Positions 29,428-33,828 of a stretch of DNA of 35,389 nt are shown in pieces. A program made the translations under genes and the position numbers. How positions within the stretch are numbered: the stretch's first letter is position 1; the number at the start of each line of letters is the position of its first letter. The stretch spans positions 1-35,389 of the forward strand of contig QHWJ01000350.1 of NCBI GenBank assembly GCA_003222535.1, in the 5' to 3' direction. The notes below the pieces were generated by a model. The model was not told the DNA's origin, made no database searches, and saw only the letters and a program-made list of their open reading frames with translations. The DNA is from Acidobacteriota bacterium. Lineage in GTDB: Bacteria; Acidobacteriota; Vicinamibacteria; Vicinamibacterales; CAVVIG01.

Positions 29428-30300
29428 TTAATACCCGGTGACGGTAGTCGAGGTCTGTTCGCCGCGTGCCTGCTGGACGATCTTCACGCCGGCGCTCGCG
29501 CCGACGCGGGTGGCGCCGGCGGCGATCATCGCCTTCATCCCTTCGAGATCGCGGACGCCACCGGCTGCCTTGACGCCCATTTCCGCGCCGACGACCCGGC
29601 GCATCAGCGCGACGTCCGCCGCCGTGGCGCCGCCGGGGCCGAAGCCCGTCGACGTCTTGACGTAATCGGCGCCCGCCGCCTTCGCCAGCGTGCACGCGGT
29701 GGTTTTCTCCTCGTCGGTCAGCAACGCCGCCTCGATGATGACCTTACTCAGCGCGCCGGCATCACGGCACGGCGTGGTGACCGACTCGATGTCGCACTCT
29801 ACGACGCGCAGGGCCCCCGACTTCAGCGCCCCCACGTTGATCACCATGTCGATCTCCCGAGCGCCGTCGAAGATGGCGCGACGCGTCTCGTAGCCTTTGA
29901 CGTCCGGAGTCGTGGCGCCAAGCGGGAACCCGACGACCGAGCAGACGCGGACGCCGCTGCCCTCCAGCAGCTTCGCCGACAGCGCGACCCATGTGGGGTT
30001 TATACAGACCGTTGCGAACTTGAACTGCGCCGCCTCGCGGCACAGCTCCCCGATGTTCGCGCGCGTGGCGTCCGGTTTGAGGAGCGTGTGATCGATCATC
30101 GACGCCACGCTGTCCGGCGCGCCGCCGGCGGCGTACAGACCGACGCGCGTCGCGCCCGCGTCGAGCACGCCGCGCAGCCGATCCGGACAGCAGTCGTCCA
30201 GCACGGCATGGCACGGGCAGCGCTCTTCGGGCCGCGGCGCTGCCGCCGTCAACTCACCGACGATCACGTCGATCAGATGTTGCAGTTCCTCTCGAGTCAT
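29428..30300 (-). CDS. deoC: Deoxyribose-phosphate aldolase with a 65-residue N-terminal extension
   Basis: Cleaves 2-deoxyribose-5-phosphate to glyceraldehyde-3-phosphate and acetaldehyde. The catalytic TIM-barrel core begins at about residue 67 ([12 protein letters not shown]). It contains the Schiff-base Lys215 in [13 protein letters not shown], a second Lys about 244 in VKAAGGVRD and Asp151 in EIDMVINVG. The 290 residues exceed the usual 220-260. The extension has an amphipathic helix ([17 protein letters not shown]) that resembles encapsulation peptides of microcompartment cargo. After it comes a Cys/His cluster, [14 protein letters not shown] (Cys28, 30, 37, 38; His31), absent from ordinary DeoC. 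rpiB lies directly upstream on the same strand. Confidence 0.93.
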
Positions 30301-30330
30301 CCCAGGTAGCCCGGGCTCCCAGCTCGGTCT

Positions 30331-30450
30331 GGGGACTTCAGGACTTAGGGGACTAGGGGACTAGGGGACTAGGGGACTGGGTCCCTGGCCCTCAGTCCGT
30401 AGTCCCCAGTCCCCGAGTCCCCAGGCCCCGAGTCCCCAGTCCCCAGTCCC
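30331..30450. repeat. GGGGACT/AGTCCCC inverted repeat array at the rpiB end
   Basis: The plus strand carries GGGGACT-type units at about 30331-30380 and then many AGTCCCC units to about 30450, potentially a long hairpin. The right part is translated on the minus strand as the rpiB C-terminal tail. It lies between rpiB and deoC. Confidence 0.8.
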
Positions 30451-31072
30451 TGTCCTCGAGCGCGCGTATCTTGGCGAGCCTCCTGATATACCGCGGCTCC
30501 CGCATCGGGGTCGTGAGCCACGTGGCCACGATCGCGCGCGCCTCCTCCTGGCTCACGAGCGTGGCGCCCAACGTCAGCACGTTCGCGCCGTTATGCTCGC
30601 GGGCATAGCGCGCGATGGTCTCCGAGGTCGCCATCACCGCGCGGATGCCGTCGATTTTGTTGGCCGCAATGGCCGACCCGATGCCGGCCCCGTCGATCAC
30701 GATGCCGCCGTCCGCGTCTCCGCTCGCGACCAGATCGGCGACCGACGCGGCCACGTCAGGATAATCGACGGGCTCGGGTCCGTCGGTCCCGAGGTCCTGC
30801 ACCGAGAGTCCGCGGCCTCGAAGAAACGGGACGAGCGCCTGCCGCAGCTTCACCCCGGTATGATCGCTGGCGATCGCCACGATCCGGATGTCCGCTCGAG
30901 GAACGAGCGACGCTTCGTCCGGCGCGCGGCCTTCATGCACGACGATGACCCTGCGCTCCTTCAAGGTGTCCTGCGCGAGCGGCGTGACATGGCCGCCGCG
31001 CGCCAGCATCACCGTCTCGCCATGCGCCAGCACCCGCGCATCGGCTTCGGCAATGATCTCGAATCGTTTCAT
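30392..31072 (-). CDS. rpiB: RpiB/LacAB-family sugar-phosphate isomerase with extra N- and C-terminal segments and altered active site
   Basis: The family interconverts ribose-5-phosphate and ribulose-5-phosphate. The core starts at about residue 62 (IRIVAIASDHTGVKL; Asp70-His71 conserved) and keeps AREHNGANVLTLGA (His160, Asn161). The active-site Cys-Gly-Thr-Gly of E. coli RpiB (Cys66, Thr68) is replaced by VIDGAGIGS (Asp127, Ala129), so catalysis must differ or the substrate is unusual. Residues 1-45 (EIIAEADARVLAHGETVMLA, TPLAQDTLKE) resemble the short N-terminal domain of EutT-like microcompartment proteins. The last 18 residues, DWGLGTRGLGTRGLGTTD, are encoded by a GGGGACT repeat. It is followed by deoC. 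Confidence 0.9.
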   Translation of the reverse strand: MKRFEIIAEADARVLAHGETVMLARGGHVTPLAQDTLKERRVIVVHEGRAPDEASLVPRADIRIVAIASDHTGVKLRQALVPFLRGRGLSVQDLGTDGPEPVDYPDVAASVADLVASGDADGGIVIDGAGIGSAIAANKIDGIRAVMATSETIARYAREHNGANVLTLGATLVSQEEARAIVATWLTTPMREPRYIRRLAKIRALEDRDWGLGTRGLGTRGLGTTD

Positions 31073-31077
31073 TGCGG

Positions 31078-31083
31078 TATGAT
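31078..31083 (+). promoter_or_regulatory. Candidate -10 box TATGAT for leaderless hpt
   Basis: TATGAT ends nine bases before the hpt ATG. No Shine-Dalgarno lies in the 20-bp gap to the divergent rpiB start. Confidence 0.45.
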
Positions 31084-31092
31084 TTCGCCCCT

Positions 31093-31623
31093 ATGTCCGA
31101 GATCTCCGAGCTGCGTCCGACCGAGATCCTACTCTCCGAGGCACAAATTCAAAAGCGCGTCGCCGAGCTCGCGCTCGACATCCGCCACGACTTTCCCGAC
31201 GACCTGCACGTGATCGCCGTCCTCAAAGGCGCGTTCATCTTTCTGTCGGATCTCATACGCCATATCCCCGGCCACGTTTCCCTCGACTTCATGGCGGTCT
31301 CGAGCTACGCCAAGGGCACGACGACGTCGGGAGAAGTGCGGCTGCTCAAGGACCTCGACACGGCGCTGAGCGGCCGCAACGTCGTCATCGTCGAGGACAT
31401 CGTCGATACGGGGCTGACGCTCACCTACCTGCAGGACATCCTCCTCAACCGCAACCCGAAAGTGCTCCGGACGGCGTGTCTCCTCAGCAAGCCGTCGCGG
31501 CGCCAGATAGATGTCAAGGTCGAATACGTCGGCTTCACGATCGAAGACCGGTTCGTCGTGGGATACGGCCTCGATTACGCCGAGCGATACCGCAACCTCG
31601 CCCACATCGCCGTGCTCGGATGA
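31093..31623 (+). CDS. hpt: Hypoxanthine-guanine phosphoribosyltransferase
   Basis: Salvages hypoxanthine and guanine with PRPP to IMP and GMP. The 176 residues contain the PRPP loop VVIVEDIVDTGLTL, an N-terminal VIAVLKGAFIFLSDLIRHI, the flexible-loop region MAVSSYAKGTTTSGEV, and VEYVGFTIEDRFVVGYGLDY for base recognition. ATG 31093 is chosen over an in-frame ATG 21 bases upstream because it fits the family length and the -10 position. It is divergent from rpiB. Confidence 0.95.
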   Translation: MSEISELRPTEILLSEAQIQKRVAELALDIRHDFPDDLHVIAVLKGAFIFLSDLIRHIPGHVSLDFMAVSSYAKGTTTSGEVRLLKDLDTALSGRNVVIVEDIVDTGLTLTYLQDILLNRNPKVLRTACLLSKPSRRQIDVKVEYVGFTIEDRFVVGYGLDYAERYRNLAHIAVLG

Positions 31624-31667: not shown

Positions 31668-33068
31668 TCATCGCGCGACCGCAACCGCGTCCCGGACGCG
31701 CGCGGCGAGCCGGTTCGCGTCGGCGATCACCACCGCGCGATCCAACGTGCGCACCTGACGGTCCTTCATCAGGATCCTGCCGTTCACGATCGTGGTGCGC
31801 ACGTCGTCTCCGCGGGTGACGTAGACCAGGTGTGACGTCGGGTCGTACGACGGCGTCTGGCGTGTGGCGCGCATCGCGACCGTAATCAGATCCGCGCGCT
31901 TGCCGGCCTCGAGCGAGCCGATCAGGCGCTCCATCCCCATCGCCCGCGCGCCGCCGATGGTGGCCAGATCGAGCGCGGCCCGTGCGGGCAACGCGGTCGG
32001 ATCGTGGCTGGCATGCTTGGCCAGGAACGACGCCTGGCGCATCGCCTCGAACATGTCGAGATCGTTGTTGCTCGCGGCACCGTCCGTGCCGAGGCCCAGC
32101 GCGATGCCGGCGGTCAGGTACTTCGTCACCGGTGCGGTGCCGCTCGCCAGTTTCATGTTGCTCTCGGGGTTGTGCGACACGCCAATACGGCGCCGCTTCA
32201 GGATCTGGATGTCGTCGTCGTTCACCCAGACACCGTGCGCGGCCAGCGTGCGCGGCCCCCAGAATCCAATCGACTCGAGGTACGCGGTGGGCGTCATCCT
32301 GTACTGCTCGCGCGCGATGCGGACTTCGTCTTCCGTCTCCGCGAGGTGGATGATCACGGGAACGTCATGGCGGCGTCCGAGCTCCGCGCACGCCAGGAGC
32401 GTCGGCTTGTCGTTCGTGTACAGCGCGTGCGGCGCCACCGCCGGCACGATCAGCGTGTCGTCCTTGAATGCGTTGATGAAGCGCTCCGCGCGCGCCAGCG
32501 CCTCGGCGGGCGTCTTCGCATCGGCCACCGGAAACTGGATCACCGTCTGGCCCAGCACGCCGCGCAACCCCGCCTCGCGCGTCGCCCTGGCGATCTCTTC
32601 CTCGAAGTAATACATGTCCGCGTAGGTCGTCGTCCCCGATTCAATCATCTCGAGCGCGGCCAGGCGCGTGCCGGTGCGGACGAACTCCGGCGAGACCGTC
32701 TTCGCTTCGGCCGGAAAAATGTAATTCTGCAGCCACTCCATCAGGGCCAGATCGTCGGCCAGGCCCCGGTACATGACCATCGGCGCGTGCGTGTGCGTGT
32801 TGATCAGTCCCGGCAGGACGATCTGGTCGCCTGCGTCGAGGGTTTCCGCCGGCTGGTACTTCGCGGCGATCGCGTCAGGCGTGCCGACCTCGACGATATC
32901 GATGCCGTCGATGGCGACCGCGCCGGGCGACAGAATCGCGCGCGCCGCGTTCTCCGTGATGACCGTCCCGCCGACCACGACCAGCGCGACGGCGCGCCGG
33001 GCCGGCTGGACGGAGACCACCGCCACCGGCGCCGCGATGAACATCAGCAACGCATAAAACCGTTTCAT
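31668..33068 (-). CDS. Exported MTA/SAH deaminase-like amidohydrolase
   Basis: 466 residues of the cytosine deaminase/5-methylthioadenosine-S-adenosylhomocysteine deaminase branch. Metal sites are LINTHTHAPM (HxH), a later His in VIIHLAETEDEV, AAHGVWV and the Asp in GLGTDGAASNNDLDMF. The substrate loop VMYRGLADDLALMEWLQNYI is typical of MtaD. It carries a signal peptide (MKRFYALLMFIAAPVAVVSV), unlike cytoplasmic MtaD, so it probably works in the periplasm on released nucleosides or a related heterocycle. The start is supported by TACAAT nine bases upstream (leaderless type). A longer open frame upstream has no family similarity. Confidence 0.9.
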   Translation of the reverse strand: MKRFYALLMFIAAPVAVVSVQPARRAVALVVVGGTVITENAARAILSPGAVAIDGIDIVEVGTPDAIAAKYQPAETLDAGDQIVLPGLINTHTHAPMVMYRGLADDLALMEWLQNYIFPAEAKTVSPEFVRTGTRLAALEMIESGTTTYADMYYFEEEIARATREAGLRGVLGQTVIQFPVADAKTPAEALARAERFINAFKDDTLIVPAVAPHALYTNDKPTLLACAELGRRHDVPVIIHLAETEDEVRIAREQYRMTPTAYLESIGFWGPRTLAAHGVWVNDDDIQILKRRRIGVSHNPESNMKLASGTAPVTKYLTAGIALGLGTDGAASNNDLDMFEAMRQASFLAKHASHDPTALPARAALDLATIGGARAMGMERLIGSLEAGKRADLITVAMRATRQTPSYDPTSHLVYVTRGDDVRTTIVNGRILMKDRQVRTLDRAVVIADANRLAARVRDAVAVAR

Positions 33069-33077
33069 CCGCGGGGA

Positions 33078-33083
33078 ATTGTA
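33078..33083 (-). promoter_or_regulatory. Candidate -10 box TACAAT for leaderless amidohydrolase mRNA
   Basis: TACAAT on the minus strand ends nine bases before the ATG, with no Shine-Dalgarno in between and no clear -35. A short GGTCCCCAGCCCC repeat lies further right (about 33161-33186), between this and upp. Confidence 0.45.
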
Positions 33084-33192
33084 CTTCACAGATCGCGAGA
33101 GCCACCTCTCACGGATGTGCGGGGGACGCGACGAGCGTGGGGAGAGCGTTTCCGACGGCTGGTCCCCAGCCCCCGGTCCCCAGCCGCCGATG

Positions 33193-33198
33193 TATAGT
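33193..33198 (+). promoter_or_regulatory. Candidate -10 box TATAGT for leaderless upp
   Basis: TATAGT ends six bases before the GTG at 33205, putting the expected transcription start on the G of that codon. The alternative ATG at 33190 would lie upstream of the transcript. Confidence 0.5.
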
Positions 33199-33204
33199 GA
33201 CGGC

Positions 33205-33828
33205 GTGTCCGTCCACATCGTCGACCATCCGCTGGTGCACGATGCGCTCGTCTCGCTGCGAGACAAGCAGACGACGGCGGAGCATTTCCGGCGGGCGGCG
33301 ACGCGCATCAGCGTGCTGCTGGCGGCCCAGGCGCTCAGCGACGTGCCGACGAGCGCCGTGACCGTCGAAACGCCGCTCGGTCCGGCGCCGGGCCGGCGCA
33401 TCCGCGGCAACGTCGTCGTCGTGCCGGTGCTGCGCGCGGGGCTCGGCATGCTGGACGCGGTGCTGGAGCTCGTGCCGGGCGCACGGGTGGGCCACATCGG
33501 GCTGCAGCGCGACGAGATGACCGCGATCGCGTCGCAGTACTACTCGAAGCTGCCGGCGCGGCTCGATTCGAGCTACGTGCTGATGATCGACCCGATGCTG
33601 GCCACCGGTGGCAGCGCGGTGGCGGCGCTCGATTTGCTCCAGCACGCCGGCGCGAAGGTCATCCGGATGATCTGCATCGTCGCCGCGCCCGAAGGCGTGG
33701 CGCTCGTCGATCGGTATCACCCCGATGTCGCGATCTACACGCCGGTCGTCGATCGGGAGCTCAACGACCACAAGTACATCGTTCCGGGTCTTGGTGACTT
33801 CGGCGATCGCCTCTACGGCACGATTTGA
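33205..33828 (+). CDS. upp: Uracil phosphoribosyltransferase
   Basis: Converts uracil and PRPP to UMP. The 207 residues match the usual length of 208 when started at GTG 33205, which gives SVHIVDHPLVHDALVSLRDK, the standard N-terminus. The motifs are VVVPVLRAGLGMLDAVLELV, the PRPP loop MIDPMLATGGSAVAAL, and the uracil-binding C-terminus YIVPGLGDFGDRLYGT. ATG 33190 is in frame but adds five residues and lies before the predicted -10 end. Together with hpt and deoC it suggests a nucleobase/deoxynucleoside salvage neighbourhood. Confidence 0.95.
   Translation: MSVHIVDHPLVHDALVSLRDKQTTAEHFRRAATRISVLLAAQALSDVPTSAVTVETPLGPAPGRRIRGNVVVVPVLRAGLGMLDAVLELVPGARVGHIGLQRDEMTAIASQYYSKLPARLDSSYVLMIDPMLATGGSAVAALDLLQHAGAKVIRMICIVAAPEGVALVDRYHPDVAIYTPVVDRELNDHKYIVPGLGDFGDRLYGTI

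Follow-up and report, generated by a model that had tools for sequence, protein, structure and literature searches.

Among the described bacterial microcompartments, three types come close to the locus reported here. SPU loci encode a DeoC-type enzyme (pfam01791) and an RpiB-type enzyme (pfam02502) in one locus with the shell genes, and their AldDh belongs to the EUT-like acetaldehyde branch. (AldDh stands for the acylating aldehyde dehydrogenase throughout.) The ACI type has 125 members, is found exclusively in Acidobacteria, carries its AldDh on a satellite locus and is counted, in the passages of the survey that describe it, among the types having no obvious signature enzyme for making the aldehyde (Sutter et al. 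2021, PMC8217296). The same passages name no DeoC or RpiB cargo for ACI. They report that some HO genomes (Haliangium) have a remote DeoC-type pfam01791 enzyme, in some cases with an N-terminal extension resembling an encapsulation peptide (EP), which is described as an amphipathic helix of 15-20 residues on a flexible linker. HO is a different shell type, for which neither an RpiB partner nor a docking domain is mentioned in these passages (PMC8217296). SPU-like loci of Latescibacteria are described, in the relevant part of an earlier survey, as holding an RpiB-like protein, a class II aldolase, AldDh, PduL and PduS (Axen et al. 2014, PMC4207490). For Salmonella EutQ, binding to the shell is assigned to residues 9-41 and binding of cargo peptides to residues 62-99, and residues 1-99 suffice for targeting GFP, according to the sections of the report concerned (PMC12487888). 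Judged by titles and abstract openings, none of the literature found assigns DeoC or RpiB to ACI shells or names, on RpiB or AldDh, the module described below.

The window analysed here is a whole contig of 35,389 nucleotides from a draft genome of 8.06 Mb (450 contigs, 95.5% complete, 1.4% contamination). Acidobacteria MAGs give the best named matches of its DeoC, and two of these MAGs bear the label gp6; this points to an acidobacterial host, as expected for ACI. On the minus strand rpiB lies upstream of deoC with a gap of 91 bases (Table 1). A sequence-only reading of the same DNA had described the two genes as adjacent on one strand, had found no shell gene in the window and had taken the pair for cargo of an SPU-type microcompartment, encoded in a satellite locus or left as a remnant. 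The adjacency is confirmed, and the window is indeed without a shell gene; the BMC-H and BMC-P matches of the genome lie on other contigs. The satellite part of the claim is well supported by comparison, as the genome has shell genes, the N-terminal segments of both enzymes track shell genes throughout the phylum, and DeoCs in shell loci of other phyla carry extensions of similar build. The SPU part has to be given up. We consider it probable that rpiB-deoC is a remote cargo operon of an ACI-type microcompartment, which would be fed acetaldehyde from nucleoside sugars. What is shown directly is the gene content, the homology of the domains, the co-occurrence and the linkage seen in relatives.

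Table 1. Genes and protein segments of the rpiB-deoC region, in window positions.
Feature	Position	Strand	Basis or remark
Two-gene unit rpiB-deoC	29428-31072	-	
deoC, deoxyribose-5-phosphate aldolase with N-terminal extension of about 64 residues	29428..30300	-	290 aa; TIGR00126, model
DeoC catalytic domain, residues 65-276	29473..30108	-	TIGR00126, alignment, model
DeoC Cys/His cluster CPCH...CCPDR, residues 28-41	30178..30219	-	alignment of 22 DeoCs
DeoC encapsulation-peptide-like N-terminal helix, residues 1-19	30244..30300	-	AF2 model, comparison
rpiB, sugar-phosphate isomerase of the RpiB/LacAB family with N-terminal mini-domain	30392..31072	-	226 aa; family match, model
RpiB C-terminal repeat, last 19 residues	30395-30451	-	
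RpiB catalytic core, residues 65-207	30452..30880	-	RpiB/LacAB family match, alignment
RpiB D127	30692-30694	-	
RpiB EutT/EutQ-like mini-domain with HVTPLA motif, residues 1-46	30935..31072	-	profile comparisons, structure model, distribution
Phosphoribosyltransferase, divergent neighbour (named hpt by look)	31072..31623	+	Pfam Pribosyltran, 99.9 bits
Amidohydrolase, perhaps a nucleobase or nucleoside deaminase	31668..33497	-	Amidohydro_1, 259.5 bits
upp, uracil phosphoribosyltransferase, start uncertain	33079..33828	+	UPRTase, 231.6 bits

Three BMC-H and three BMC-P genes are present in the genome, so a genome free of any shell is ruled out. The only BMC-P matches form a triplet on contig C264, which encodes a TPR protein, a class II aldolase, a BMC-H, the three BMC-P, an 83-residue protein and a 2-hydroxyacid dehydrogenase. 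The aldolase ends in LTYRELSALIEDAIRSLR, a helix-like tail as judged from the sequence alone. A pfam00596 aldolase with a C-terminal EP, a pfam00389/02826 dehydrogenase, the BMC-P triplet and a BMC-H stand in one locus, as in the published ACI gene set. Contig C294 carries a further BMC-H together with AldDh, in agreement with the satellite locus of ACI; this BMC-H lies at the contig edge. Against the acetaldehyde dehydrogenase model TIGR02518 the AldDh scores 600.3 bits, below the cut-off of 620.1. A search of the genome for PduL found none, and the usual acyl-phosphate step is therefore missing.

The shell gene set of this genome is the ACI type of Acidobacteria and not SPU. An SPU-type shell is ruled out for this genome by the position of the sole BMC-P genes inside the ACI gene set. 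The likeness to SPU lies in the enzymes: the pfam01791 and pfam02502 pair, the long DeoC leader and the placing of rpiB ahead of deoC, both also seen in the shell loci of other phyla, and an AldDh in the genome that may be of the acetaldehyde type. The difference lies in the setting, since the pair is encoded outside the shell locus, the BMC-P genes belong to an ACI-type locus and PduL was not found in the genome. With ACI the genome has in common the class II aldolase with its helix-like C-terminal tail, the 2-hydroxyacid dehydrogenase, the BMC-P triplet, the BMC-H and the satellite AldDh.

Two further observations concern the shell contigs. The 83-residue protein of the ACI locus (L007:6469-6720) starts with an EP-like helix and ends with a Cys cluster, CNHCGYC, much as in the leader of DeoC, and it may act as a linker. 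On contig C449 (L009:10600-12266) a BMC-H adjoins an Ala_racemase_N/D-ser_dehydrat enzyme, which scores 140 bits against the 3-hydroxy-D-aspartate aldolase BhcC (cut-off 690) and might be a further source of aldehyde for the shell. A 259-aa frame beside this BMC-H matched no family and was discarded as a probable chance frame.

The catalytic part of DeoC belongs to its expected family. Residues 65-276 match TIGR00126 with 271 bits (cut-off 117.3), and D151, K215 and K244, which we take to be the catalytic residues, are invariant in the aligned DeoCs. The roughly 64 residues in front of it hold the helix, linker and Cys/His cluster that had been read from the sequence. In the AF2 model residues 3-19 form a single helix, residues 20-29 and 33-36 have a pLDDT under 50, and a short helix at 39-47 leads to the barrel. 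The helix together with the low-confidence stretches has the form of an encapsulation peptide, with the amphipathicity assessed by eye, and the helix may be a putative targeting signal directing the enzyme into the shell. The cluster consists of C28, C30, H31, C37 and C38; C28 and C30 are invariant and C38 and P39 at least 90% conserved among 22 aligned DeoCs, and metal binding by these conserved residues is possible. No significant Pfam family was found in the first 63 residues (best E 0.2), and residues 1-58 are not covered by any solved chain among the matches listed (E up to 1e-10).

A profile made from 21 C-terminal tails of ACI aldolases was used for scanning the window. The DeoC N-terminus ranked second of 10,121 window positions with a score of 10.0; the 29 window frames scanned include 3 containing stops, whose borders are wrong. 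As the maxima that the same profile reached on 200 shuffled proteomes averaged 9.9 and went up to 15.0, the match falls within the shuffled range. It was rejected as a decisive test and counts only as support, for a position fixed beforehand.

The RpiB of the window has two parts. AF2 folds residues 1-46 into a compact beta-alpha-beta-alpha-beta mini-domain (mean pLDDT 91-96 for residues 1-40 and 79 for 41-50), which the RpiB fold follows. In the first 63 residues no Pfam family is significant, the best being PDU_like with an E of 0.032, and residues 1-48 are not reached by any solved chain among the matches listed (E up to 1e-10). A sequence search for a solved relative of the mini-domain found none (best E 0.38). 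TPLA is invariant in RpiB over the aligned set. In the core, D127 stands at the position that Cys occupies in three solved RpiBs (IDGAGIG versus ICGTGLG). Two alignments, one of 25 and one of 14 sequences, each with the RpiB of the window among them, show this Asp as invariant. The reaction is therefore uncertain and may differ from that of the solved enzymes. To our knowledge, 2-deoxyribose-phosphate is no substrate of RpiB in the usual sense. The last 19 residues contain a short repeat, GLGTRGLGTRGLGTTD, that is absent from the other 24 rows of the alignment and is perhaps an intergenic repeat read through. A plasmid search with RpiB returned no record covering 80% of the query.

At its C-terminus AldDh has a helix-like stretch and a linker, followed by a segment of about 46 residues that resembles the start of RpiB. 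In a single hhalign comparison the RpiB N-domain and the AldDh C-domain matched with 95.4% (E 1.7e-8), and 50 column-shuffled controls of this comparison reached at most 4.1%. By these profile scores the two domains are homologous. The RpiB start had been likened to EutT, correctly, for RpiB alone gives 83.9% with EutT; the likeness extends to the AldDh of ACI and to EutQ. RpiB alone gives 0.7% with EutQ, and it is AldDh (78.3% with EutQ, 54.0% with EutT) and a joint profile of RpiB and AldDh that provide the connection to EutQ. Among 18 E. coli eut-region proteins this joint profile picks EutT (E 1.6e-9) and EutQ (2.1e-5), with the next best at 0.93, and hhalign gives 94.4% and 53.4%, respectively. 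By profile comparison, then, both RpiB 1-46 and the C-domain of AldDh are homologous to the start of EutQ and EutT. Scanned against the genome (150 of 358 candidates scored), the joint profile has two strong matches, AldDh and RpiB, with the next at E 0.05; as both are rows of the profile, the informative part is the absence of other matches.

The module on RpiB and AldDh corresponds to the shell-binding part of EutQ, the protein for which shell binding is published. EutQ differs in carrying a part that binds cargo peptides (62-99) and a cupin domain, whereas here the module is fused directly to enzymes; furthermore, the EutQ report describes helices H1 and H2, whereas the AF2 model of the RpiB module has three strands and two helices.

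The distribution of both N-terminal segments was examined in 247 genomes drawn evenly from the phylum. DeoC was found in 161 of these, BMC-P in 106, RpiB in 213, the class II aldolase in 130, AldDh in 93 and the module in 90. A DeoC was called extended if its alignment began at residue 41 or earlier; 149 of the 161 genomes were classified by alignment rows and the other 12 were counted as short. BMC-P is present in 64 of the 68 genomes with extended DeoC versus 23 of the 93 with short DeoC. Likewise, it is present in 84 of the 90 genomes with the mini-domain versus 22 of the 157 in which no mini-domain was found, where absence is a soft call as at most 28 candidates were scored per genome. These co-occurrence counts ignore phylogeny; three families (f33, f34 and f37) contain both states.

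The exceptions are few. Two of the four extended DeoCs without a BMC-P match come from genomes in 450 and 800 contigs (G080 and G188) in which an ACI-like aldolase is present; in the other two the leader is Arg-rich (G236) or unrelated (G112). The mini-domain occurs without a BMC-P match in 6 of 90 genomes (G058, G080, G127, G136, G148 and G188), among which G058, being 98% complete, is a real counter-case. In the family of the window, G088 has an extended DeoC, but neither the mini-domain nor an AldDh match was found in it. The claim of microcompartment cargo had been staked on shell genes in the genome and on segments not shared with organisms that lack shells, and with 4 of 68 extended DeoCs lacking a BMC-P match it survives on both counts.

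These counts bear on the idea that the N-termini are assembly or metal-binding modules, by which DeoC, RpiB and AldDh would be joined in a soluble metabolon and not be encapsulated. Such a role would suit the Cys/His cluster that follows the helix of DeoC, as we know of no such cluster in encapsulation peptides, and the module common to RpiB and AldDh could be a homotypic contact. However, the presence of the modules follows that of shell genes from one genome to the next, modules are also encoded within shell loci, and the EutQ counterpart binds the shell according to the sections of the report on its N-terminus (PMC12487888); we therefore regard a soluble metabolon as highly unlikely.

The linkage of DeoC to shell genes was determined in the same sample. 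A genome was called ACI-like if a class II aldolase lies no more than 8 kb from BMC-P, and SPU-like if DeoC lies no more than 8 kb from BMC-P; both counts are lower bounds, since they cover part of the BMC-P rows and part of the aldolase rows, with those of families without BMC-P mostly left out. At least 69 genomes are ACI-like, and they comprise 43 with extended DeoC, 11 with short DeoC and 15 with no DeoC match. DeoC is missing or short in 26 of the 69 genomes of this lower-bound set, and it is therefore not an obligatory ACI enzyme. In none of the 43 genomes with extended DeoC is DeoC within 8 kb of a typed BMC-P. DeoC lies within 8 kb of BMC-P in at least 11 genomes, one of them of the order of the window, and the ACI-like and SPU-like sets do not overlap in the sample. 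In two genomes, G176 and G245, the latter of the window's order, RpiB and DeoC form a single fused protein inside the shell locus.

This pattern would fit a relic, in which the pair derives from an SPU locus that lost its shell, the tagged DeoC and RpiB are now cytosolic, and the ACI shell does other work with its class II aldolase. The fusions in shell loci of the same order (G245, L268), the separation of the at least 69 ACI-like from the at least 11 SPU-like genomes and the 15 ACI-like genomes with no DeoC match all speak for such an origin. Yet the extended DeoC is kept in 43 of the at least 69 ACI-like genomes, the aligned sets show invariant Cys in DeoC and invariant TPLA in RpiB, both the extension and the mini-domain are rare where BMC-P is absent, and the module of RpiB is also found on the AldDh of the ACI satellite. 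On balance a relic seems unlikely to us.

Use of the module is not confined to RpiB and AldDh. G171 and G242 have the mini-domain on the class II aldolase frame of the shell locus, and in G156 and G164 the shell locus encodes, besides a class II aldolase and AldDh, a protein that has the module and a partial RpiB match (61.6 and 50.8 bits). The latter two resemble the Latescibacteria loci, described in part of the earlier survey, in that a single locus combines an RpiB-like protein with a class II aldolase and AldDh (PMC4207490). In the two RpiB-DeoC fusions (L267 and L268, from G176 and G245) a helix-like stretch is seen between the two enzymes. G125 is assembled as one contig of 7.5 Mb, with the ACI locus at about 0.72 Mb and the other two loci, rpiB-deoC (3.97 Mb) and AldDh (4.20 Mb), in a distant part of it. 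Because these loci are far apart on a single contig, their scatter is not just an artefact of binning.

Outside the phylum, the best 80 DeoC loci of a scan of named genomes were inspected, with shell genes called by our own small profiles; where none is seen in a locus, one may be encoded beyond the contig end. In Chloroflexi, Bacteroidetes, Actinobacteria, Planctomycetota and others, the DeoCs encoded next to shell genes carry long leaders that look helix-like by eye, and of the 26 DeoCs from loci that hold shell genes, 16 have four or more Cys within the 75 residues preceding the core. Sorting the leaders by motif proved too narrow (22 of 40 'extended' loci and 4 of 38 'other' loci held shell genes, all four of the latter with long leaders) and was replaced by open-frame length. 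With 78 of the 80 loci scored, 2 not callable and locus lengths differing, shell genes were found in 26 of 46 loci with at least 60 open residues before the DeoC core and in 0 of 32 with fewer.

The gene neighbourhood of the pair in the window looks like one of nucleoside metabolism. The label hpt for the divergent neighbour is given by look, the domain tested being Pribosyltran alone, and the amidohydrolase probably has its real start inside the called frame. In the phylum search a homologue of the phosphoribosyltransferase lies within 1.5 kb of deoC in 20 of 30 DeoC loci, and the amidohydrolase is a neighbour in many of the same loci. The window DeoC is the sole DeoC match of the genome, which also encodes deoB and four PNP-family matches. 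These neighbours, deoB and the PNP-family matches fit a breakdown of (deoxy)nucleosides.

Such a setting, with the phosphoribosyltransferase, amidohydrolase and upp nearby and a single DeoC match in the genome, would also be expected of housekeeping nucleoside catabolism beside base salvage, the extensions then being a lineage-specific decoration with no role in a microcompartment. Long leaders, however, recur in the shell-adjacent DeoCs of Chloroflexi, Bacteroidetes, Actinobacteria and others, and none of the 32 DeoCs with fewer than 60 open residues, many of them from Bacilli, had a shell gene nearby. We find it very hard to credit a pure housekeeping role.

In the remote cargo operon that we favour, DeoC would enter the shell by means of its encapsulation-peptide-like helix and RpiB by means of the mini-domain homologous to the shell-binding start of EutQ, which AldDh carries at its C-terminus. 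DeoC would cut nucleoside sugar phosphates to acetaldehyde, which would then be made into acetyl-CoA, and RpiB may act on ribose-5-phosphate or on another sugar phosphate related to it. Bases released from the same nucleosides would be salvaged by the phosphoribosyltransferase, the amidohydrolase and upp next door. Encapsulation of the pair, the substrate and the use of one shell for several cargo modules are what we infer from these results.

A wider proposal, to which we give about even chances, is that the EutT/EutQ-like module of about 45 residues is a general docking plug-in, found on RpiB, AldDh and the class II aldolase and usable at either end, which along with helix peptides loads the ACI shell from scattered operons. 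In that case ACI would act as a hub for acetaldehyde, which DeoC would supply from deoxynucleosides and for which other aldolases would offer alternative inputs; the shell would no longer lack a known source of aldehyde.

The tagged remote RpiB-DeoC operon provides a concrete candidate substrate for ACI, namely nucleoside sugar phosphates, and if the reading is true it would give a purpose to a shell type so far without a clear function. Microcompartment cargo can be missed if reading stops at the genes adjoining the shell genes. Finally, the comparisons point to a small portable docking module that may be common to the ethanolamine, sugar-phosphate and ACI systems.
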